A stretch of 42,708 nucleotides of DNA from Eubacteriales Family XIII. Incertae Sedis bacterium. Lineage in GTDB: Bacteria > Bacillota > Clostridia > Peptostreptococcales > Anaerovoracaceae. This document shows, one piece after another, positions 32,055-42,708 of this stretch. Location of the stretch: the NCBI GenBank assembly GCA_031266515.1, contig JAISAW010000087.1:1-42708 (forward strand). The letters run 5' to 3'. Position 1 is the stretch's first letter. The number at the start of each line of letters is the position of its first letter. The notes beneath the pieces were generated by a model that saw only the letters and a program-made list of their open reading frames with translations, did no database searches and had not been told where the DNA came from. The translations under genes were made by a program, and so were the position numbers.

Positions 32055-32206
32055 AGAACTTTATTGCATCGAGGTTGTAGAAGTCCACTGAGCGCGTGAC
32101 CTCGCGGCTGCCCTCGGTTTGAACTCTTTCCTTTATGGAAGGTATTCTCTCATACTGCTTAATTTGAAACGAGACGTGATTGCCTTGACGCTTACCTTTT
32201 TGTCCC
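32055..32206 (-). pseudogene. RhuM-family N-terminal fragment joined to the 73-bp repeat
   Basis: Minus-strand translation GQKGKRQGNHVSFQIKQYERIPSI-KERVQTEGSREVTRSVDFYNLDAIKF; the VQTEGSREVTRSVDFYNLDAI part is RhuM-like and then breaks off. Confidence 0.7.
32134..32206. repeat. 73-bp perfect direct repeat, left copy
   Basis: tatggaaggtattctctcatactgcttaatttgaaacgagacgtgattgccttgacgcttacctttttgtccc, identical to 41707-41779. Confidence 0.97.
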
Positions 32207-32216
32207 GCAGATATAT

Positions 32217-32306
32217 ACGGCAAGACAAAATAGAACCGTCCCATTTTTGTCGACGGCAAGACAAAATAGAACCGTCCCATTTTTGTCGAACCGTCCCATT
32301 TTTGTC
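32217..32306. repeat. REP-like array, 36-bp period (2 full units + partial)
   Basis: acggcaagacaaaatagaaccgtcccatttttgtcg twice, then aaccgtcccatttttgtc. Confidence 0.93.
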
Positions 32307-32356
32307 CTATCTGATCGACCTTATTTTTTTACTGGAAGTGTTTAAAACCCGGGCGG

Positions 32357-32941
32357 TTAACGCAGACCGTCAAACACGATATCGAGCATCCGGCCGACGC
32401 GCTTCCTGCACGCTTCTTCATCGTTTGGTTCAGTGAGCGGCGTTTCGTACAGTACGGAATAATAGACCCCGAGCAGACTGTCAACCGCTGTGTCGATCTC
32501 GATGTCCGCGCGGATGCTGCCCTCGGATTTTGCCTGTACGACAAGACAGATCAGCATGGAGCGGATACGCGCCTGCGTCTTGCCTGGTTCTTCCTCAAAG
32601 CTGTTGATCAGGAATACAATACGCCGCGTCAACACAAGGTAGGAAACGGCGTCAAGAATATAGGATTCAAGCAGCAGGCGGATACGTTCCGTTGCGCTCG
32701 CGTCCGTATCCACTGTCTCGGTGAACATCTTTTCGAGCGAAACCATTTCTTCCTCGGCGATACCGACGAGCAGGCTTCCCTTACTGGGGAAATAGTTATA
32801 GAGGGTCTGCCGCGCGACATGGGCGCTGTCAGCGATATCGTTCACCATCGTTTCTTCATAGCCGTTCTCGCGGAACATGTGGCGCGCCGTTTTCAGGATG
32901 CGTTCCCTCGTTCTGATTTTATTTCTTTCTCGCAATACCAT
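32357..32941 (-). CDS. TetR/AcrR-family transcriptional regulator
   Basis: RTRERILKTARHMFRENGYEETMVNDIADSAHVARQTLYNYFPSKGSLLVGI is a TetR HTH. Confidence 0.94.
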   Translation of the reverse strand: MVLRERNKIRTRERILKTARHMFRENGYEETMVNDIADSAHVARQTLYNYFPSKGSLLVGIAEEEMVSLEKMFTETVDTDASATERIRLLLESYILDAVSYLVLTRRIVFLINSFEEEPGKTQARIRSMLICLVVQAKSEGSIRADIEIDTAVDSLLGVYYSVLYETPLTEPNDEEACRKRVGRMLDIVFDGLR

Positions 32942-32989
32942 ACAGATAGTTTATAGAAAAGTGGATATCTGCACAAGCGGTTTTTGTTC

Positions 32990-33018
32990 TTGACTACATC
33001 TTTGGACTTGAGTATAGT
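32990..33018 (+). promoter_or_regulatory. Predicted sigma-A promoter of the RLP operon
   Basis: TTGACT (32990-32995), 17-bp spacer, TATAGT (33013-33018), in the TetR/aminotransferase divergent intergenic region. Confidence 0.65.
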
Positions 33019-33060
33019 AATCGTAACAAATTGAACTACTCTGACAACAGGGAGGTATAT

Positions 33061-34518
33061 ATGATTGACTTGACTAAAAAAGGGTATTCGATATCCTGTT
33101 GGCCTGATGAGAAAGCCATTTACGAGAAGATGGGCCTTTTGGTAAACGGGGCCGATTACCATCTCAAGCCGGAGGCTTTACGGGAATACATGGGATATTT
33201 TGAGATCAAATGTGCCGGCTCCAAAAAATTGAACGAAGAAGCGAAACAGTATATTCCAGGCGGCGTTCAGCACAATCTCGCGTTCAATACGCCGTTTCCG
33301 CTCGCGGCGGCCAAGGCGGAGGGCGCTTATCTTTACGACGTGGACGGCAACCGGTATGTTGATTATCTGCAAGCCGGCGGTCCGACGCTGCTCGGCAGCA
33401 ATTACGCGCCTGTGCGCGAAAAAGCTATCGAGGTCATCAGCGAGAGTTCGCCGTGCACGGGTCTTTTCCATGAATATGAGATGAAACTCGCGCAGGAAAT
33501 TAATAAGCATATGCCGTGGGTCGAACAATTCCGCGCGTTGGCGAGCGGCACGGAATCCGACATGCTCGCGCTCAGGGTCGCGCGTTGTTATACCGGCAAG
33601 AAGAAGATAATCAAGGCGGGTGGCGCCTATCACGGTTGGAGCGACCAGCTCGTCTACGGATTGCACATTCCGTTTACGGGCAATTTTGAATCGCACGGTA
33701 TCCCGGGAGAGTGCTATGCCAACACGCAGGAGTTTTTCCCGAACGACATCGAAGGACTTCGCAAACTTTTCGAAAAGAACGAAGCCGATGGCGGCACTGC
33801 GGCTGTTATCCTTGAACCGTTTGGTCCGGAAAGCGGCACGAGGCCGGTTACACAGACGTTCAATTATGAGGTGAGAAAGCTGTGCGACGAGTTCGGCGCA
33901 TTGCTCATCTTCGATGAAGTCGTCACCGGTTTCCGCGTGGGGCCGGGCGGCGCGGCCGGGTTCTTTGACATCAAGCCGGATCTTGTCGTCTTTGGCAAAA
34001 TCGTCGCGGGGGGCTATCCGGCGGCAGGCGGCATCGGCGGCAGCAAAGACGTTATGAGCGTGGTCGCGGCGGGCGTCGATACGAGCAAGCCGCGCGCATA
34101 TTGCGGAGGCACCCTTTCAGCCAACCCCTTGAGCTGCGCAGCCGGATATTACGCGATAAAGGAGATCGTGGAGCGTGACGCCGCGGCTAAGGCGGGCAAG
34201 GCCGGCGACAGGCTTACGGAAGGCATCAACAAACTGATCGACAAGTACGATCTGCCGTTTGTGGCATGGAATACGGGATCCATTGTGCATTTTGAAGTTT
34301 CCGGGATGATGTATGTCGATGTGCGCAGGGAGGATGCAATGCAGCAGCTTCACCTGAAACGCAAGCGTGTCGAGGAGTTCGGCGCCGCGCTCACCGCGAA
34401 TGGCGTCATCACTCTTGCCGGCAGCCGCATCTATACGAGTATGGCCGATGATGACGAAACGCTTCAGCTCACGCTTCGGGCGTTTGACGATGTCATGGGC
34501 AATCTGACGTTGAGTTAA
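33061..34518 (+). CDS. Class III PLP-dependent aminotransferase (glutamate-1-semialdehyde aminomutase-like)
   Basis: YIPGGVQHNLAFNTPFPLAAAKAEGAYLYDVDGNRYVDYLQAGGPTLLG; LASGTESDMLALRVARCYTGKKKIIKAGGAYHGWSD; LLIFDEVVTGFRVG; PDLVVFGKIVAGGYPAAGGIGG. Confidence 0.92.
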   Translation: MIDLTKKGYSISCWPDEKAIYEKMGLLVNGADYHLKPEALREYMGYFEIKCAGSKKLNEEAKQYIPGGVQHNLAFNTPFPLAAAKAEGAYLYDVDGNRYVDYLQAGGPTLLGSNYAPVREKAIEVISESSPCTGLFHEYEMKLAQEINKHMPWVEQFRALASGTESDMLALRVARCYTGKKKIIKAGGAYHGWSDQLVYGLHIPFTGNFESHGIPGECYANTQEFFPNDIEGLRKLFEKNEADGGTAAVILEPFGPESGTRPVTQTFNYEVRKLCDEFGALLIFDEVVTGFRVGPGGAAGFFDIKPDLVVFGKIVAGGYPAAGGIGGSKDVMSVVAAGVDTSKPRAYCGGTLSANPLSCAAGYYAIKEIVERDAAAKAGKAGDRLTEGINKLIDKYDLPFVAWNTGSIVHFEVSGMMYVDVRREDAMQQLHLKRKRVEEFGAALTANGVITLAGSRIYTSMADDDETLQLTLRAFDDVMGNLTLS

Positions 34519-34547
34519 TTGTATTTATTAGAGAAATGAGGTAAAAA

Positions 34548-35864
34548 ATGATCAGAAGACTTGAAGATGTGAACATGATGTACGCCTTTCCCGAGGTGGC
34601 GCTGGACGAAGGCTACGCGATCGGCACCTTCCAGGCCAAGGTGAAAACGAAGGACATCGAGAAGCTCGCAATGGCGATCGCCGATGAACAGACCACGGGT
34701 ACGTGGATAAAGGTCGGCGGCAGCTCGGATGAAAAGAACAAGATTTTCGGCGCGAAGGTCGTTTCGGTCTACGAGGTCCCGGACACCGCATCCGATTATA
34801 TGGCGGACGAACCGCCGATGTACCTCATACAAGTCGCCTTCCCCGTCAAGAATTTCGGAACCAGCATCCCGATGATGCTCTCAACAGTATTCGGCAACAT
34901 CTCCGCTTCGGGCATGCTCAAGTGGATTGACTGCGCGTTTCCGAAAAGCTATGTGGAGCAGTTCAAAGGACCGCAGTTTGGCGTGCAGGGCTTGCGCGAC
35001 GTGCTCAACATACCAGACCGACCGCTGCTCAACGCGATGATAAAACCCAATATCGGCTGGACGCCGGACGAGGGCGCGCAGATATTCTACGACACGGCGC
35101 GGGGCGGCGTGGACGTTATCAAAGATGACGAATTGTTGCCCGCAGACGAATCGTTCTGCCCGCTTAAAGAGCGTGTCACGAAATTCATGGCAATGGAAAA
35201 GAGAGCGTTTGAGGAGACAGGCGAACACACACTCTACGCGACAAACATCACGGACGATGTCGCGAAGATTCGCGATAACGCGCTCAGAGCTATCGAGTAC
35301 GGCACGAACTGCCTGATGATCAACGCGTACACGGCCGGGTTCAGCGCGCTGAAGATGCTTGCGGACGATCCCGACATCAACGTGCCGATTCTCGCGCATA
35401 TCGATTTTGTCGGCGCGATGGCCGGCAGCACGTACACCGGAATATCCGCGCCTCTGCTTATCGGAAAACTCGTGCGCCTCTCCGGCGGCGATTTCCAGAT
35501 CAACGGTCATCCGTGGGGCAAATTCCCCGTGCCGAATAAAATGTTCTTCCGCTCATTCAAATTCTTCACCCAGCCGTGGTGGAATATAAAGCCGATGATG
35601 TACGCGGCTTCGGGCGGCACGACGCAGCTTGCCGTACCACATATCATGAAGGCCGCGGGCACGGACGTCATTCTCGCCGCAGGCGGCGCTGTTCACGGGC
35701 ATCCGGACGGAAGTTTCGCGGGCGCTCGCTCGATGCGTCAAGCGATCGACGCGACGATGGACGGTATTTCTCTGCCGGAGGCGGCGAAGAAATACGAGGA
35801 GCTGGGCCGCATGGTCGCGTTCCTCGATCCGGATATTTTGAAGAACTTCGATCTGATGAATTAA
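34548..35864 (+). CDS. RuBisCO-like protein (form IV type)
   Basis: DEQTTGTW; FGNISASGMLKWIDCAFP; IKPNIGWTPDE; GGVDVIKDDELL; ASGGTTQLAVPHIMKAAGTDVILAAGGAVHGHPDG. Confidence 0.93.
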   Translation: MIRRLEDVNMMYAFPEVALDEGYAIGTFQAKVKTKDIEKLAMAIADEQTTGTWIKVGGSSDEKNKIFGAKVVSVYEVPDTASDYMADEPPMYLIQVAFPVKNFGTSIPMMLSTVFGNISASGMLKWIDCAFPKSYVEQFKGPQFGVQGLRDVLNIPDRPLLNAMIKPNIGWTPDEGAQIFYDTARGGVDVIKDDELLPADESFCPLKERVTKFMAMEKRAFEETGEHTLYATNITDDVAKIRDNALRAIEYGTNCLMINAYTAGFSALKMLADDPDINVPILAHIDFVGAMAGSTYTGISAPLLIGKLVRLSGGDFQINGHPWGKFPVPNKMFFRSFKFFTQPWWNIKPMMYAASGGTTQLAVPHIMKAAGTDVILAAGGAVHGHPDGSFAGARSMRQAIDATMDGISLPEAAKKYEELGRMVAFLDPDILKNFDLMN

Positions 35865-36508
35865 TGGCTATGTACGACACTATTGTATTTATAGACTTCG
35901 ATGGCACCGTGACGTCCGAGGAGACGCTCACGGGGTCATTGAAGCACCTCGATCCGCCGCCCGAAGGTGCGGCGGAAATCGAGCGCAAACTTACCGCGGG
36001 CGAATTGACGCTGAAAGAAGCGGTGACTTCCGTCTTTTCGTCCGTGCGGTCGGATCGGGTCGGCGAATTTACGCGATATATCAATTCCGTGCCGCTGCGG
36101 GCGGGATTCGGTGCGCTTTTGGACGCGCTTTGGTCGCGCGGTATCCCCGTCGTCATCGTGAGCGGCGGGCTTGACATTATGGTGAAGGAAAAACTCGCGC
36201 CGTACCGTGAGAAGCTGACGGATATTTGGGACGTTAAAGTCGATCTCTCCGAAGCGTATTTCAAGCTCGTCGCGGAACCGGAAGGGGAACTGGAGCTTAT
36301 CGACAAGGTCGCGGTTATGGGCAGATACACATACCGGCGCGCAGTCTGCATCGGCGACGGTTATACGGACATCCTGATGGCGCGAAACGCGGATGTGGTG
36401 TACGCGCGGGATGCGCTGGAGGTCTATCTCAAAGCGCATGACATACCGTATCGTCCATGGGAAGATTTCCGTGATATTTTGAAAGACGTTGAAAACAAAA
36501 ATGTTTGA
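35864..36508 (+). CDS. HAD-superfamily phosphatase, MtnX-like
   Basis: IVFIDFDGTVTSEETLTGSLKHLDPP; IPVVIVSGGLDIMVKEKLAP; CIGDGYTDILMARNADVVYARDALEVYL. Start overlaps the RLP stop (TAATG). Confidence 0.85.
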   Translation: MAMYDTIVFIDFDGTVTSEETLTGSLKHLDPPPEGAAEIERKLTAGELTLKEAVTSVFSSVRSDRVGEFTRYINSVPLRAGFGALLDALWSRGIPVVIVSGGLDIMVKEKLAPYREKLTDIWDVKVDLSEAYFKLVAEPEGELELIDKVAVMGRYTYRRAVCIGDGYTDILMARNADVVYARDALEVYLKAHDIPYRPWEDFRDILKDVENKNV

Positions 36509-36604
36509 AGTGTGATGAAATATAATATAATGTGACATATATGGAATAATTGTTTTGGCTGTCGGCGGCAGTTCATATGCCGTGACAGCGGAAATGAGGT
36601 AAAG

Positions 36605-37180
36605 GTGCGTGAAGTCGAACGAAAACTGAGAGTTGGAACGGCGGAGCAGGCACATATCGTCGATTTTTGTATGCGCGAAGGATTTACGGCTTTGGGCGAA
36701 ACTTCGCAGACAGACCTATATTTTACACCGTCAAACCGCAATATCTACGAGGAGGATATGGCTCTGAGGCTGCGTACCGATCGGATCTTCGGCGGGAAAG
36801 AAGAGTCAACGATAACATTCAAAGGGAAAGGACGCGATGACTCCTTTCACGACAGAACAGAAATCGAAACGGGCGTAGAGGACGGCAACGCGTTTGCCGG
36901 TATTCTGCGCTCGCTTGCATTTCAAGAGGTATTAACGGTCAGAAAGAAAAGGAGGTCTTATACAAAGGGCCCCGCCACGGTTTCGCTTGACGAAGTGGAG
37001 GGGCTCGGTTTTTTTGTTGAGGTGGAATATGTGGCGGAGGATACGGAAGCGGGTAAGGAACAGGCTGTCTCGGTGATCAACGGGCTGATCGAAAAGATGG
37101 ATATGGAATCTGCAGTGAACGAGCCGAAGAATTATCTGCAGCTTCTTGCTGCGAAAAAGATTGCGGAAGGGCGTGAATGA
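36605..37180 (+). CDS. CYTH-domain protein (CyaB/ThTPase-like)
   Basis: VREVERKLRVG (ExExK-type start); TDLYFTPSNRNIYEEDMALRLRTDRIFGGKEESTITFKGKG; VSLDEVEGLGFFVEVEYV. GTG start. Confidence 0.85.
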   Translation: MREVERKLRVGTAEQAHIVDFCMREGFTALGETSQTDLYFTPSNRNIYEEDMALRLRTDRIFGGKEESTITFKGKGRDDSFHDRTEIETGVEDGNAFAGILRSLAFQEVLTVRKKRRSYTKGPATVSLDEVEGLGFFVEVEYVAEDTEAGKEQAVSVINGLIEKMDMESAVNEPKNYLQLLAAKKIAEGRE

Positions 37181-38755
37181 ATGGAAGAACGATTAATAAT
37201 TGCCTATGATATGGGAACGACGGGCAATAAGGCATGCCTGTATTCACTCAGGGCTGGCGGCATTGAAAAGGTCGCCGAAAAACAGGTTCGGTATGGCGTG
37301 TCAATCCGTCCCGGAGGCGGCGTCGAGCAGAATCCTGAGGAACTTTGGGGCAGCATCCGCGGGGTGAGCAAAGCTTTGCTTTCGGAAACGGGGACTCGGC
37401 CCGAAGATATTGCGATGGTCTCATTTTGCACACAGATGCAGGCTGTCGTGCTTCTGGACAAGAACGGGAAACCCCTTCGCCCCATTATGAACTATATGGA
37501 TGAACGGGCCGCCGGCCAGTTTGAAAAATTCAACGAGGGGCCGATTCGAGTCGACGGGTTGAACGCGGTCAAAAACCTCGCGGCGATTCGCGAAAACGGC
37601 ATTACGGCCGCCAGCGCGAAAGACCCCGTTTACAAATACAAGTGGGTGCGTGAAAACGAGCCGGAAATTTTCTCGAAAATCTATAAATACGTGGATGTCG
37701 GAGGGTGGGTGTTGCATCGCTGTACCGGCAGGTATGTGACGACCGAGGACGTCGCGTATACCGCGCTCGTCTACGATGCCCGAGGGCATCATTGGAGTGA
37801 AAAGCTCTGCCGGATGCATCAGGTCGAGATGAGCCATCTGCCCGAAATCGTCGGCTCTACGGAATGCGTCGGAACCCTTACGGAAGCAGCGGCGGCGGAT
37901 ATGGGACTGACGACAAACTGCAAGGTCATAGGCGGCGGAGGCGATGTCGCGATGATCGCGCTTGGCGCCGGCTGCACGAAACTGGGCGACACGCTCGCCT
38001 ATATTGGGACTTCGGGCTGGGTGACGACGTGCGTCGACAAACTCGGCATTGACCTCGCCAACAGCATCGGTTCGACGGTGGGCGCGCAGCAGGGCGTTTA
38101 CCTGTATTTCGCCGAAATGGAACTCGCGGGCAAGAATATCGAATGGGCCAGAGATAATCTCATGCTCGACGGGGAAGGGGTTTACGCGGCAAAAGAATTA
38201 TCCGACGAGGATGTTATGCATAGAATCGGCGAGATCGCCGGCAGATCTTCTCCCGGCGCGGGCGGCGTCATTTTCATGCCGTATCTGCTCGGTAACAGAT
38301 GCCCTTTTGAGGATGTTTTCAGCCGCGCATCGTTCTACAACATCAGTTTGACGAACACCAAGGCGGATTTAATGCGCAGCGTTATTGAGAGCATAGCATA
38401 CCATATGTATTGGATGATCGAGCTGATTGAGAAGAAGAAACCGATGAATAACACCTTGCGGATTATCGGGGGAGGAGCGAAATCGGATCTTCTGTGTCAG
38501 ATACTCGCCGATATGAGCGGTCGCACCACAGAGCGTACAAGAGAACCACAGAACGCCGGTGTGCTTGGTGCGGGAATTCTTGCCGCAAATCATTTCGGGT
38601 ATCTCGATTCGCTTGAGGATGCCAAACGTCTCGCGCAGGTAGGGGATGTATTCGTGCCTGATCCTGAAACGAGAGGCCACTATATGAAAAACTATCAGAT
38701 CTATAAGCAGTGGCCAGCGCAAAACAAGAAAAATTTCAGATTTTTGAATAAATAA
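37181..38755 (+). CDS. FGGY-family carbohydrate kinase
   Basis: LIIAYDMGTTGNKACLYSL; GGGVEQNPEELWGSI; LRPIMNYMDERA; AYIGTSGWVTT; LRIIGGGAKSDLLCQILADMSG. Start abuts the CYTH stop. Confidence 0.92.
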   Translation: MEERLIIAYDMGTTGNKACLYSLRAGGIEKVAEKQVRYGVSIRPGGGVEQNPEELWGSIRGVSKALLSETGTRPEDIAMVSFCTQMQAVVLLDKNGKPLRPIMNYMDERAAGQFEKFNEGPIRVDGLNAVKNLAAIRENGITAASAKDPVYKYKWVRENEPEIFSKIYKYVDVGGWVLHRCTGRYVTTEDVAYTALVYDARGHHWSEKLCRMHQVEMSHLPEIVGSTECVGTLTEAAAADMGLTTNCKVIGGGGDVAMIALGAGCTKLGDTLAYIGTSGWVTTCVDKLGIDLANSIGSTVGAQQGVYLYFAEMELAGKNIEWARDNLMLDGEGVYAAKELSDEDVMHRIGEIAGRSSPGAGGVIFMPYLLGNRCPFEDVFSRASFYNISLTNTKADLMRSVIESIAYHMYWMIELIEKKKPMNNTLRIIGGGAKSDLLCQILADMSGRTTERTREPQNAGVLGAGILAANHFGYLDSLEDAKRLAQVGDVFVPDPETRGHYMKNYQIYKQWPAQNKKNFRFLNK

Positions 38756-38790
38756 GATACAGCAAAACGGGGGAAGACGGCCGGGAAACG

Positions 38791-39855
38791 GTGAAAAGCA
38801 AAATGGATAAGAATACGGCAAAAGAGCAAGTAGTTCGCGCGGGACGCGAGCTTGTGGCGAAAAGGCTTGTGGCTCGTACCTGGGGCAATGTGAGTTGCCG
38901 CTGCGATGAGCATATGTTTGTCATCACGCCGAGCGGCATTGGTTATGAGCGTCTAACGCCCGATTTGATCGTGGCTGTAGACACGCGGGATGGATCTTAT
39001 CAGGGTGATGTCGCTCCTTCTTCGGAATACAAGATGCATACTGCGATTTATAGCGCCCGTCCGGATGTCGGCTTTATTATCCATACGCACCAAACTTATG
39101 CGACGTGCATAGGCCTTGCGGATCTTGAAAGGCTTGCGCCGACGCCGGAAGAGACGAAACGGCTTGGCGGATCGATCGGTATTGCTGAATATGCTTTCCC
39201 CGGCACCAACAAACTCAAAGAGAACGTGAAAAAGGAGATTGCAGTGAGAGGCGGCGTTGTACTCATGAAGCGACATGGCGCAATCGCTGTCGGTGATACC
39301 TCTGATAAAGCATTCGGCCGCGCCAATCTGCTCGAAGAAGTGGCAAAGCGTGCGATGCCGGGTATTGTCTATGCCGCAGACGAGCCTGCGGCTACAGCTT
39401 CGCGCCCTTCCGGCGGAAACGGTCATTGCGGCGCTGAGGCCGAAGATCATATCGCTCCATACGCGGCGGCAATTTTCGCGCGACACGCCGATGTTTCGCA
39501 GATACTGCTTTTGAATTCACCGTCAACCGTGGCGGTGATGGATCGGAGGCGCGCAATTCCCGCGCTGATAGATGATTACGCGTTCATTGTCGGGACGGAC
39601 GCGAAGGTAGTTGATCCGATTCCCGAAAAGGCTGCTGCCGCGCTTTCAAGCAGATCCGCAGTTTTCGTCCGAGGTCTTGGCGCACTCTGCTGCGCCGCAG
39701 AACTTTCTGACGCGGAGGCCGTCATGATGTTGGTCGAAAAGAACGTGATGGCTCTGCGCGCGGCCGAACAATACGGAAAAATCAAGGCAATCCCGTATTG
39801 GGAGCGGCTGCTGTTAAGGCAGGTATACGTATCGAAATACTCAAAGAAGAAGTAG
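38791..39855 (+). CDS. Class II aldolase/adducin-family protein with a degenerate second domain
   Basis: LVARTWGNVSCRC; ITPSGIGYERLTPD; IIHTHQTYAT; VLMKRHGAIAVGDT (metal His present). The C-terminal half repeats the fold pattern without them (ILLLNSPSTVAV; VFVRGLGALCCAAELSD). Confidence 0.87.
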   Translation: MKSKMDKNTAKEQVVRAGRELVAKRLVARTWGNVSCRCDEHMFVITPSGIGYERLTPDLIVAVDTRDGSYQGDVAPSSEYKMHTAIYSARPDVGFIIHTHQTYATCIGLADLERLAPTPEETKRLGGSIGIAEYAFPGTNKLKENVKKEIAVRGGVVLMKRHGAIAVGDTSDKAFGRANLLEEVAKRAMPGIVYAADEPAATASRPSGGNGHCGAEAEDHIAPYAAAIFARHADVSQILLLNSPSTVAVMDRRRAIPALIDDYAFIVGTDAKVVDPIPEKAAAALSSRSAVFVRGLGALCCAAELSDAEAVMMLVEKNVMALRAAEQYGKIKAIPYWERLLLRQVYVSKYSKKK

Positions 39856-39913
39856 CAGGTGGTTCCATTTAATTAGGACTTGAGCTAAAGAAGTCTGAAG
39901 GAAGGCGAGTACG

Positions 39914-41152
39914 ATGAAACAGCAGGATGATTATAAGGTATACGGTTATCGTTGGGTGGTATTAGCGCTTTATGTCGCAGTCGCAACCATGATTCAGATT
40001 ATGTGGGCCACTTTTTTCGCCATTACGCTTGAAGCGGGCGCCTATTACGGCTTTGCGGCAGACGAGGCGGAATCGGCAATCAGTCTCTTTTCGATTATCT
40101 TCATGATTGGAATGATTGTGGTCTCCATACCATCTTTCGCGATGTTTGAGAAGTGGGGTTACAAAAAATCCGTCGGTTTCGGTGTGATACTCATGACAAT
40201 CGGAGCTATGTTGCGAGGCATCTTCGGGCATAATTATACGATTGTCCTGATTTGCACCATCCTGTTTGCTATTGCGCAACCCTTCATATTGAACGCGGTC
40301 GGTCTTGTCGCGGGCAAATGGTTCCCCGCAAAAGAACGTGCTACCGCGAACGGACTGGGACTGCTTTCAAATTATGTAGGCATCATGATAGGCCTGATCC
40401 TTGTACCGGTGATTCTGTCCGGAGGCACGGATATCCAGGGTATGCTAATGATCCTTGGCATTGTCGCCGCGATCTTTTCAGCGTTGTTTTGCATATTCAC
40501 CAAAGAGGCACCACCTACGCCACCATGTGCTGATGAGGACTATGTACGCGAAAAGTTTCTCAGCGGTATGAAGCAGTTGTTCAAGAAAAAAGATTTCATC
40601 AAAATAATGCTCGCGTTCTTTCTGACACTCGGTGTGTTTAACGTGTTTTTCACTCTCATCGAGCCGATTCTCCAATCTTTCGGAGGGAGCGTGATCAACT
40701 CCGTACAGGTCGGAATTATCGGAGTCATTATGCTTATCATGGCAATCGTTGGCAGCGTTGTGATTCCGATGCTGTCGGATAAAGACAGGCATCAGCGAAG
40801 AAAGCCATACATGGTACTCGGTATGGCTCTTGGGACATTGGGTCTCGGCTTTATGATAGTGTCACACAGCTTCGGTATGTTGACCACGTTCGCTATAGTC
40901 TATGGCTTGTTTGGTATCGGCGCCGGTCCAATCACTATGACGCTCGCGGCGGAGATAGGGTATCCTACAAGCGAGGGAACCTCGGAAGGTTTACTGTTGC
41001 TCGCGGGCAATATCGCGGGCGCGGTTTTCCTGATTGCTGCCGATGTTTTCAGCGGGAACTATACCGCGCTGATGATTGCGCTGACCGCGATGGATCTGAT
41101 TGCACTCGCGCTCATGATCGCTACAAGAGAAAAGAAAAAAGATGTAGCATAA
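39914..41152 (+). CDS. MFS transporter
   Basis: About 12 hydrophobic segments; YRWVVLALYVAVATMIQIMWATFFAITLEAGAYYG; FEKWGYKKSVGFGVILMTIGAMLRG; KWFPAKERATANGLGLLSNYVG. Confidence 0.92.
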   Translation: MKQQDDYKVYGYRWVVLALYVAVATMIQIMWATFFAITLEAGAYYGFAADEAESAISLFSIIFMIGMIVVSIPSFAMFEKWGYKKSVGFGVILMTIGAMLRGIFGHNYTIVLICTILFAIAQPFILNAVGLVAGKWFPAKERATANGLGLLSNYVGIMIGLILVPVILSGGTDIQGMLMILGIVAAIFSALFCIFTKEAPPTPPCADEDYVREKFLSGMKQLFKKKDFIKIMLAFFLTLGVFNVFFTLIEPILQSFGGSVINSVQVGIIGVIMLIMAIVGSVVIPMLSDKDRHQRRKPYMVLGMALGTLGLGFMIVSHSFGMLTTFAIVYGLFGIGAGPITMTLAAEIGYPTSEGTSEGLLLLAGNIAGAVFLIAADVFSGNYTALMIALTAMDLIALALMIATREKKKDVA

Positions 41153-41179: not shown

Positions 41180-41222
41180 AGACAGGCACAAACCCACTAA
41201 AATAGCGGGTTTGTGCCTGTCT
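41180..41222. repeat. Perfect 16-bp stem inverted repeat
   Basis: agacaggcacaaaccc - actaaaatagc - gggtttgtgcctgtct. No T-tract follows. Confidence 0.9.
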
Positions 41223-41365: not shown

Positions 41366-41442
41366 TGCCCTTTTTGTCTATTAAGGGCGTCCCAACAAGC
41401 CAAAATAGAACCGTCCCATTTTTGTCTCCCTTTTTGTCTGCA
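41366..41442. repeat. REP-like sequences inside the rhuM remnant
   Basis: gccaaaatagaaccgtcccatttttgtctccctttttgtc, matching the core of the 32217 array. Confidence 0.8.
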
Positions 41443-41805
41443 CGCTGTGTCTGACAAAGCCTGTTCGGAGCGGGAAACGCGCCCCTTGCCCTCAAAAACC
41501 TTACGGCGGTTGTTAGTGAGGAAGCGGTCAGTCTCACTGAGCCAGTCCGCCATGCTCATCAGCACCTCATCCTCCGCCATCAGTTCCGCGTAGTAGATGA
41601 ACATTGTAACAATGCGGTTCAAGCGGTAAAGTTCCTTCTCGTTGAGGTAGTTCTTTGCCACGGATACGTCCCGTTTGATGATTTTACTATCCGGAGCGGC
41701 CTTCCATATGGAAGGTATTCTCTCATACTGCTTAATTTGAAACGAGACGTGATTGCCTTGACGCTTACCTTTTTGTCCCAAATAAAAAATCATGTTCCAA
41801 CTCAT
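41440..41805 (-). pseudogene. RhuM-family C-terminal fragment joined to the 73-bp repeat
   Basis: IPSI-WKAAPDSKIIKRDVSVAKNYLNEKELYRLNRIVTMFIYYAELMAEDEVLMSMADWLSETDRFLTNNRRKVFEGKGRVS; the frame then runs into REP-like sequence. Confidence 0.72.
41707..41779. repeat. 73-bp perfect direct repeat, right copy
   Basis: Identical to 32134-32206. Confidence 0.97.
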
Positions 41806-42446: not shown

Positions 42447-42540
42447 GGGACAAAAAGGGGACGACAAAAAGGGGACGGTTCAAAGGGGACAAAAAGGGGA
42501 CGGTTCGACAAAAAGGGGACGGTTCTATTTTGTCTTGCCG
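42447..42540. repeat. REP-like array in inverted orientation relative to the 32217 array
   Basis: gggacaaaaaggggacgacaaaaaggggacggttc...gacaaaaaggggacggttctattttgtcttgccg; its reverse complement matches cggcaagacaaaatagaaccgtccc. Confidence 0.92.
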
Positions 42541-42708
42541 TTCATCATGTCATATTTTATTTTTGCCCCAACTCTCAACAACCCCCTTGCCTAAACCCGT
42601 CACCCTTGCGATTTGGCGGATTGGTATAAGGCTCCCCCTCATTTCCATTGCGATTCGTCGTTGCTCCCCTATCGGCATCTTTTGAAAATCGCTTGTGTTC
42701 CGGGCCCC

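Follow-up and report, generated by a model that had tools for sequence, protein, structure and literature searches.

A hybrid gene islet places a RuBisCO-like protein in a putative amino-alcohol breakdown pathway of an Anaerovoracaceae bacterium

Few functions of RuBisCO-like proteins (RLPs) are known. What reaction, then, does an RLP perform when its gene lies among those of a class III aminotransferase, an FGGY-family kinase, a HAD phosphatase and a class II aldolase? Such an islet is found in positions 1 to 42,708 of contig JAISAW010000087.1 (hereafter the window) from an Eubacteriales Family XIII bacterium. The eight genes named in the original prediction are all present and arranged as described, with short gaps and with every gene except the divergent TetR on the + strand:

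32134..32206, +: left copy of a 73-bp direct repeat, 100% identical to 41707-41779
32357..32941, -: TetR-family regulator, divergent from the operon (PF00440 54.1 bits, cut-off 24)
32990..33018, +: predicted sigma-70-like promoter TTGACT-N17-TATAGT, matching the consensus at 10/12 positions
33061..34518, +: class III aminotransferase AT3, GGVQHNL subfamily (PF00202 174.8 bits)
34548..35864, +: RLP (PF00016 171.2 bits)
35864..36508, +: MtnX-like HAD-IB phosphatase (best NCBIfam match MtnX PRK09552)
36605..37180, +: CYTH (CyaB-type) protein (TIGR00318 110.9 bits, cut-off 57.95)
37181..38755, +: FGGY-family carbohydrate kinase (PF00370/PF02782)
38791..39855, +: two-domain class II aldolase (PF00596 175.3 bits, residues 12-187)
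39914..41152, +: MFS transporter (PF07690 120.7 bits)
41180..41222, no strand assigned: terminator-like stem-loop of 20 bp, 3' of the MFS gene
41707..41779, +: right copy of the 73-bp direct repeat, inside a piece of a RhuM-like gene (PF13310)

The start of AT3 was moved from TTG 33031 to ATG 33061, behind a GGAGG at 33051, giving a protein of about 485 aa; its orthologs have 480 aa. The RLP stop and the HAD start overlap in TAATG at 35862-35866. HAD may begin there, at 35864, or at the ATG at 35870; for the aldolase, GTG 38791 and ATG 38803 are the two possible starts. The promoter sits between TetR and AT3, where such matches are no commoner than in the shuffled region, and a search of the same interval for a TetR operator palindrome found none. 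The stem-loop is the strongest hairpin in the scan, with its T-tail reported on the - strand. The two copies of the direct repeat bracket the islet and are the only ones in the whole assembly.

Ten orthologs of the RLP (67-77% identity) share the company of TetR, FGGY, AT3 and HAD, often together with MFS and CYTH. HAD lies immediately 3' of the RLP in all ten, and RLP, AT3, HAD and FGGY occur together in nine of the ten found. TetR holds the equivalent place in eight at the threshold used; in the remaining two, the TetR-like genes are weaker matches. MFS is present in five. CYTH, near the RLP in six and in other orientations, is probably not a bystander of the set. The company of FGGY and an enzyme that turns an amine into a carbonyl extends to more distant RLPs (41-50% identity) of Chloroflexi, archaea and other Clostridia; the amine enzyme is AT3, a different class III aminotransferase or one resembling saccharopine dehydrogenase. 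In a Bathyarchaeota locus, an MFS gene (176 bits) lies beside a saccharopine-dehydrogenase-like enzyme, FGGY and the RLP. FGGY and an amine-to-carbonyl enzyme lie within 6 kb of the RLP at 31 of 80 related loci (9/10 close orthologs, then 12/28 and 10/42 in the more distant score bands). At L094, L101, L106, L109, L114 and L155, longer antisense frames overlie the RLP or kinase, and these loci were read from unfiltered open reading frames.

Since the four genes stay together in nine of ten orthologs, and sets of RLP, FGGY and an amine enzyme recur in Chloroflexi and archaea, the association of the islet genes is not due to chance. The conservation of the neighbourhood on which the original prediction had staked itself is thus found, and because the same partnership returns in other Clostridia, Chloroflexi and archaea, the gene set very probably represents a real breakdown pathway. 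Emergencia timonensis and Sinanaerobacter chloroacetimidivorans are among its cultured carriers. No account of this RLP neighbourhood was found in the literature. Its signature of kinase plus deaminase extends from Clostridia to archaea, and its function is directly testable with a few purified enzymes. Other RLP contexts contain PTS, glycerol kinase-like or GlpA-like enzymes, which likewise lead to 2-keto-phosphates.

The aminotransferase had been regarded as a merely possible step. Instead, it is a core partner of the set, and the substrate appears to bear an amine, as is indicated by the replacement of AT3 elsewhere with other amine-to-carbonyl enzymes. Within one 32-row RLP clade, AT3, the other class III aminotransferase and the saccharopine-dehydrogenase-like enzyme interchange, so that their shared job would be the conversion of amine to carbonyl. 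The PLP lysine of AT3 and its Asp are invariant (alignment A4), and the protein reaches the curated cut-off of none of the NCBIfam matches listed. These include the glutamate-1-semialdehyde aminomutase (GSAM) models, on which it scores 306.2 bits against a cut-off of 398 and 281.6 against 527.3. GGVQHNL stands at the site of GGVNSPVR, the motif that holds the GSAM substrate arginine. Relatives of AT3 include aminomutases and, in the PDB, beta-phenylalanine and D-phenylglycine aminotransferases. An aminomutase role was considered and downgraded: dehydrogenase-type enzymes replace AT3 within the same RLP clade. L222, a relative of AT3, has NagA and an aldolase of the fructose-bisphosphate type as neighbours, a context that suggests amino sugars for its branch.

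The RLP belongs to the RuBisCO superfamily, as seen from PF00016, PF02788 (40.2 bits) and the carbamylation motif K192-D-D-E195. Had it fallen inside a characterised clade with the same neighbours, this would have counted against the original prediction; it passes no cut-off among the curated models for MtnW (DK-MTP-1-P enolase; 286.8 bits against 513.6 for TIGR03332 and 320.5 against 409 for NF007095), OiaX (182.7 against 700) and form III RuBisCO (266.8 against 497.45). In a tree built without a DeepYkr (R. rubrum type) reference sequence, it falls in a 12-member clade of its own (SH-aLRT 100), inside a broad group to which MtnW belongs as well. Fifteen of 19 RuBisCO active-site residues are kept, the substitutions being K177N, R295I, H298V and H327I. 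The C1-phosphate residues (T65, W66, G381, G403, G404, K334) are retained, whereas on the C5-phosphate side R295, H298 and H327 have given way, in the amine-linked RLP clades, to mostly hydrophobic residues. The 12-member clade shows no variation at E60, N123, K175, K201, D203, E204, H294, K334, S379 or the glycines of the C1-phosphate site, and this retained active site bears on how the chemistries of RuBisCO and RLPs are related. At least one DUF1537-linked RLP retains equally many active-site residues. A Variovorax RLP (L224) is followed, by our reading, by a DUF1537-type kinase gene, and a Sinorhizobium RLP (L225) has the residue pattern of OiaX.

The kinase ties the RLP to a second type of module. 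FGGY reaches 259.8 bits on the XylB model (cut-off 380) and falls in an 18-row clade (SH-aLRT 100) where the kinases of the two module types, with RLP or with aldolase, are intermingled, which argues that one kinase product feeds either enzyme. The sister module lacks an RLP and consists of TetR, FGGY, AT3 and aldolase, often with an ALDH3-type dehydrogenase. Among 15 loci with AT3 homologs but no RLP, FGGY is nearby in 13 and the aldolase in 13, with the dehydrogenase also in six. The islet aldolase is homologous to that of the RLP-less module. Its Aldolase_II match is confined to the first 187 aa, and the FucA metal and catalytic positions E79, H98, H100 and H162 are invariant in six homologs; with this catalytic Glu and three metal His, it is predicted to be a FucA-type class II aldolase. 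A class II aldolase is absent near the RLP at all RLP orthologs. The islet is thus a hybrid of an RLP module and an aldolase module, and the aldolase step that had been predicted would belong to the sister module, where the aldolase stands in place of the RLP, and not to the RLP branch. This natural swap restricts the reaction to a single intermediate common to both modules.

From the observed gene content, conservation, module swapping and active-site residues, we infer a substrate class, an order of steps and an RLP reaction. The islet may be an inducible operon for the uptake and breakdown of a small amino alcohol, with a ketose-1-phosphate intermediate whose fate is decided by RLP or aldolase; we put this forward tentatively, as somewhat short of an even chance. 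A 2-amino-1,3-diol or amino-polyol, R-CHOH-CH(NH2)-CH2OH, would be imported by the MFS transporter under the control of TetR, and AT3 would turn its amine into a ketone, yielding a dihydroxyketone. FGGY would then phosphorylate the end hydroxyl to give the ketose-1-phosphate R-CHOH-CO-CH2-OPO3, the C1 position being assumed from the family. Two alternative fates, both encoded in the host genome, could follow. With its carbamylated lysine and metal, the RLP would form a 2,3-enediolate, most likely for a carbonyl shift (1,3-proton shift), and HAD would remove the phosphate from the product; alternatively, the two-domain aldolase would cleave the ketose-1-phosphate to DHAP and an aldehyde R-CHO. 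The predicted order of kinase, RLP and HAD phosphatase remains the best reading, with an amine-bearing substrate indicated. A sphingoid base is a candidate substrate, in view of the ALDH3 neighbours and the hydrophobic pocket; the literature found describes no bacterial sphingoid-base pathway of this kind.

Several observations count against the amino-alcohol model. One ortholog (L100) keeps TetR, MFS, RLP and HAD but has neither AT3 nor FGGY in its vicinity. L053, a 52% relative, is located among pyrimidine genes. The isomerised, dephosphorylated product would be no obvious energy source, a simple isomerase would not need the retained E60 and K334, and the relatives of AT3 include aminomutases and beta-amino-acid transaminases. 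An ALDH3 was not found in the host assembly, in an uncontrolled search of an incomplete assembly, and the L222 context hints at amino sugars.

The relatives of AT3 could also point to a beta-amino acid. AT3 would convert a 3-amino-4-hydroxy acid to the 3-oxo-4-hydroxy acid, FGGY would make the 3-oxo-4-phospho acid, an OiaX-like RLP or an OtnC-like aldolase-fold enzyme would decarboxylate it, and HAD would dephosphorylate the product. In known acid-sugar pathways, decarboxylases of the RLP type and of the aldolase fold fill parallel positions, K334 is kept as in OiaX, and the aldolase scores 86.6 bits on the 3-oxo-tetronate-4-phosphate decarboxylase model, albeit with a cut-off of 250. We nevertheless consider this route unlikely, given the distance from the OiaX model, the N123 that is Gly in OiaX, the ALDH3 of the aldolase module left without a role, and the OiaX-type loci read, which adjoin a DUF1537-type acid-sugar kinase rather than FGGY. 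A variant of methionine or 5-deoxy-sugar salvage, with FGGY, aldolase, RLP, HAD and AT3 in the roles of MtnK, MtnB, MtnW, MtnX and MtnE, would explain why the best NCBIfam matches are the MtnW and MtnX models and why the set of folds and the RLP-HAD adjacency resemble the Priestia mtnW-mtnX-mtnB operon. This reading was dropped as quite improbable. The scores fall short for MtnW and for HAD (98.7 bits against 292 for PRK09552, 45 against 81.55 for subfamily TIGR01489, and 26% identity to the Priestia MtnX-type phosphatase); RuBisCO position 123, Lys in two MtnW references, is Asn throughout the 12-member RLP clade; the kinase is of the FGGY family; and no MtnB-like gene lies near the RLP orthologs. 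MtnA (TIGR00512) and MtnK (TIGR01767) gave no match in the host assembly, which is 81.6% complete, while control genomes did, and for these two the contrast with Bacillus salvage drawn in the original prediction is thereby extended to the whole assembly.

The RLP might also still perform C-C chemistry of the RuBisCO type in place of aldolase and aldehyde dehydrogenase, which we judge very improbable. The enediolate of a ketose with one phosphate, derived from an amino alcohol, would be carboxylated or oxygenated and then hydrolysed, or the reaction would run in reverse as a decarboxylation. A specific form of this reading, in which the enediolate of a ketose-1-phosphate is carboxylated and hydrolysed to 3-phosphoglycerate and R-COOH, is a long shot. 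It would fit the invariant active-site residues and an RLP module lacking the sister module's aldolase and aldehyde dehydrogenase. Yet K177 and the C5-phosphate residues are gone, HAD is left without an obvious role, and the DUF1537-linked RLP mentioned above keeps as many residues. RLPs from the related clades are not known to fix external CO2.

The favoured amino-alcohol model has partial counterparts in known systems. L-fuculose and L-rhamnulose pathways similarly combine an FGGY kinase with a fuculose-1-phosphate-type aldolase in one operon; the islet has no sugar isomerase, its keto group is proposed to come from the aminotransferase, and an RLP branch is added. With the Bacillus methionine salvage set (MtnK-A-B-W-X-D-E) it shares an MtnX-like HAD immediately after the RLP, as well as an aminotransferase and a gene of the aldolase fold, although FGGY replaces MtnK, AT3 is GSA-aminotransferase-like and the islet lacks MtnD. 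In D-apionate and 3-oxo-isoapionate breakdown, OiaX also follows a kinase, but this is of the DUF1537 type (four-carbon acid sugar), and OiaX lacks the E60 and N123 that the islet RLP keeps. The 15 residues shared with archaeal form III RuBisCO do not extend to K177, R295, H298 and H327, and in five of the archaeal genomes searched the present RLP type occurs side by side with a form III enzyme that exceeds the cut-off. The MTA-isoprenoid and DHAP shunts of R. rubrum and R. palustris resemble the proposal in that a single ketose-1-phosphate serves both an RLP and a class II aldolase (PMC5893883). Their MtnP and MtnA make it from MTA, whereas the islet has AT3 and FGGY upstream, and a cupin (methylsulfurylase) follows their RLP where HAD follows in the islet, among whose eight genes no cupin match was found. 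The compound shared in R. palustris by Ald2, the class II aldolase, and the DeepYkr RLP, a 1,3-isomerase, is 5-methylthioribulose-1-phosphate, whose tail is nonpolar (PMC5893883).

All eight genes of the original prediction, between 32357 and 41152, are confirmed by open reading frames, Pfam and NCBIfam, and no gene of the assembly other than that of the RuBisCO-like protein (RLP) matches the RuBisCO large-subunit family. The class III aminotransferase should start at ATG 33061, with GGAGG upstream, rather than at TTG 33031, as the resulting length agrees with 480-aa orthologs. Neither score nor motif makes it a glutamate-1-semialdehyde aminomutase.

Scanning one genome per GTDB species recovers ten RLPs at 67-77% identity, the next lower match being 50%; an eleventh close RLP (73% identity, genome G378) comes from a class sample. 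Within 6 kb of the ten orthologs lie genes for the MtnX-like HAD phosphatase (10), the aminotransferase (9), FGGY kinase (9), TetR (8), CYTH (6) and MFS (5), although the contigs of many loci end inside this span, so that genes are truly missing at most as often as these counts imply. The window alone among them possesses a class II aldolase. The usual order is TetR on the opposite strand, then FGGY, MFS, aminotransferase, RLP and HAD reading the same way, with CYTH often convergent; the window order is rearranged relative to these orthologs. RLPs at 41-50% from Chloroflexi, archaea and other Clostridia again neighbour FGGY and an amine-to-carbonyl enzyme, namely this aminotransferase, a second class III aminotransferase or a saccharopine/carboxyspermidine-dehydrogenase-like enzyme. 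Both partners are present at 31 of 80 loci, and as loci were picked by RLP similarity, not at random, such context counts describe the RLP clade studied. The CYTH gene (window 36605-37180; loci L093, L095, L096, L098, L099, L101) accompanies the module in several orientations. In genome G019, Amidohydro_3 amidohydrolase and nitroreductase-family genes (locus L054, 1465-3132) stand beside FGGY-RLP-aminotransferase and could release the amine from an N-acyl form.

With the aminotransferase as query, homologs occur in 13/388 class genomes and 6/398 phylum genomes, the window's genome being counted in each. Those without a nearby RLP belong to a different conserved set, a sister module of TetR, FGGY, aminotransferase and two-domain aldolase, with kinase and aldolase each in 13 of 15 loci. 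Six of these loci encode an ALDH3-type dehydrogenase, and fatty aldehyde dehydrogenase is among its nearest relatives of solved structure. G019 carries both modules in separate places (L054 and L215). In trees built by quick searches, with SH-aLRT as the sole support measure, the window kinase falls into a single clade with the kinases of both modules (SH-aLRT 100), but the window aminotransferase groups with those of the RLP module. The window is therefore a hybrid, joining the aminotransferase, RLP and HAD of the RLP module to the aldolase of its sister. A second such aminotransferase in this assembly (53%; locus L236, 1034-2572, contig C78) has TetR nearby and is followed by a short piece of an aldolase gene; this looks like the remnant of a sister module. 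At locus L222 (genome G373), an aminotransferase homolog occurs with NagA, FGGY, a zinc alcohol dehydrogenase and a class II aldolase of the fructose-bisphosphate type, a set that may serve an N-acetylated amino sugar.

One kinase lineage serves either aldolase or RLP, and an amine-to-carbonyl enzyme is the constant partner, which limits the possible intermediates. Fuculose-phosphate-type aldolases cleave a beta-hydroxy ketose-1-phosphate, the same group that RuBisCO-type enzymes enolise. In R. palustris, 5-methylthioribulose-1-phosphate is isomerised by the DeepYkr RLP and cleaved by Ald2 (PMC5893883), and this sharing of one ketose-1-phosphate is a close precedent for the RLP-or-aldolase model. 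Together these points suggest that an amino alcohol would be deaminated by the aminotransferase, phosphorylated by FGGY and then handled either by RLP and HAD or by the aldolase, a model based on which genes occur together and which residues are conserved. Candidate substrates include sphingoid-like amines as well as amino-sugar alcohols. Formation of a beta-keto acid followed by its decarboxylation is unlikely, as the kinase family speaks against it.

An alignment with form I and form III RuBisCO shows 15 of 19 active-site residues retained in the window RLP, compared with 10 in MtnW (methionine salvage) and 11 in OiaX (apionate pathway).

Retained residues (window numbering): E47, T52, W53, N117, K166, K192, D194, E195, H284, K325, S355, G356, G357, G379, G380

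K177 is replaced by Asn, and R295, H298 and H327 on the C5-phosphate side by Ile, Val and Ile. Amine-linked RLPs mostly have V, I or M at positions 295 and 327, while S, C, T or P predominate at position 295 of SorC/PTS/GlpA-linked RLPs. Given the lost C5-phosphate residues and nonpolar replacements, the substrate is expected to bear a single phosphate, on its C1 side, and to be largely nonpolar at the opposite end. The E60/K334 pair, which handles CO2 in RuBisCO, is invariant in the window RLP clade and would favour RuBisCO-type C-C chemistry on a mono-phosphorylated ketose. Just as many active-site residues survive in a Variovorax RLP linked to DUF1537, so that retention alone is weak evidence for such chemistry, which is highly improbable.

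The assembly comprises 1.79 Mb in 147 contigs and is 81.6% complete; the window is its contig C131, and repeats surround the islet.

32134-32206, left copy of an exact 73-bp direct repeat, flanking the islet
41707-41779, right copy, within a RhuM-like gene piece
32217-32307, 41392-41427 and 42480-42541, repeats of the GGGGACGGTTCTATTTTGTC type close to the islet

The 73-bp repeat has these two identical copies and no others in the assembly, a possible excision or insertion boundary. A comparable RLP is found in none of seven sampled same-family genomes. Together with the flanking repeats, this fits acquisition or relocation of the islet as a unit, despite a G+C content equal to that of its surroundings. 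The GGGGACGGTTCTATTTTGTC-type repeats number 19 in the assembly at up to 2 mismatches (reversed control, 0).

On the RLP tree, a quick search made without the DeepYkr reference sequence, the amine context requires at least five changes, and the three amine enzymes alternate within one 32-row clade. Other RLPs of the wider group neighbour PEP_hydrolase and UPF0261, or SorC, PTS or GlpA-like genes; the wider group therefore serves several pathways. The PEP_hydrolase-UPF0261 arrangement forms a conserved Clostridia cluster (loci L072-L084, L102, L108, L111, L113-L115, L119, L127, L133). More divergent RLPs (L060, L064, L065, L089) adjoin triosephosphate-isomerase-like and RpiB-like genes, in sequence reminiscent of erythrulose-phosphate isomerases. 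Five archaeal genomes encode an RLP of the window type alongside a form III RuBisCO that scores above the cut-off (L176-L180 vs L193, L189, L192, L190, L196).
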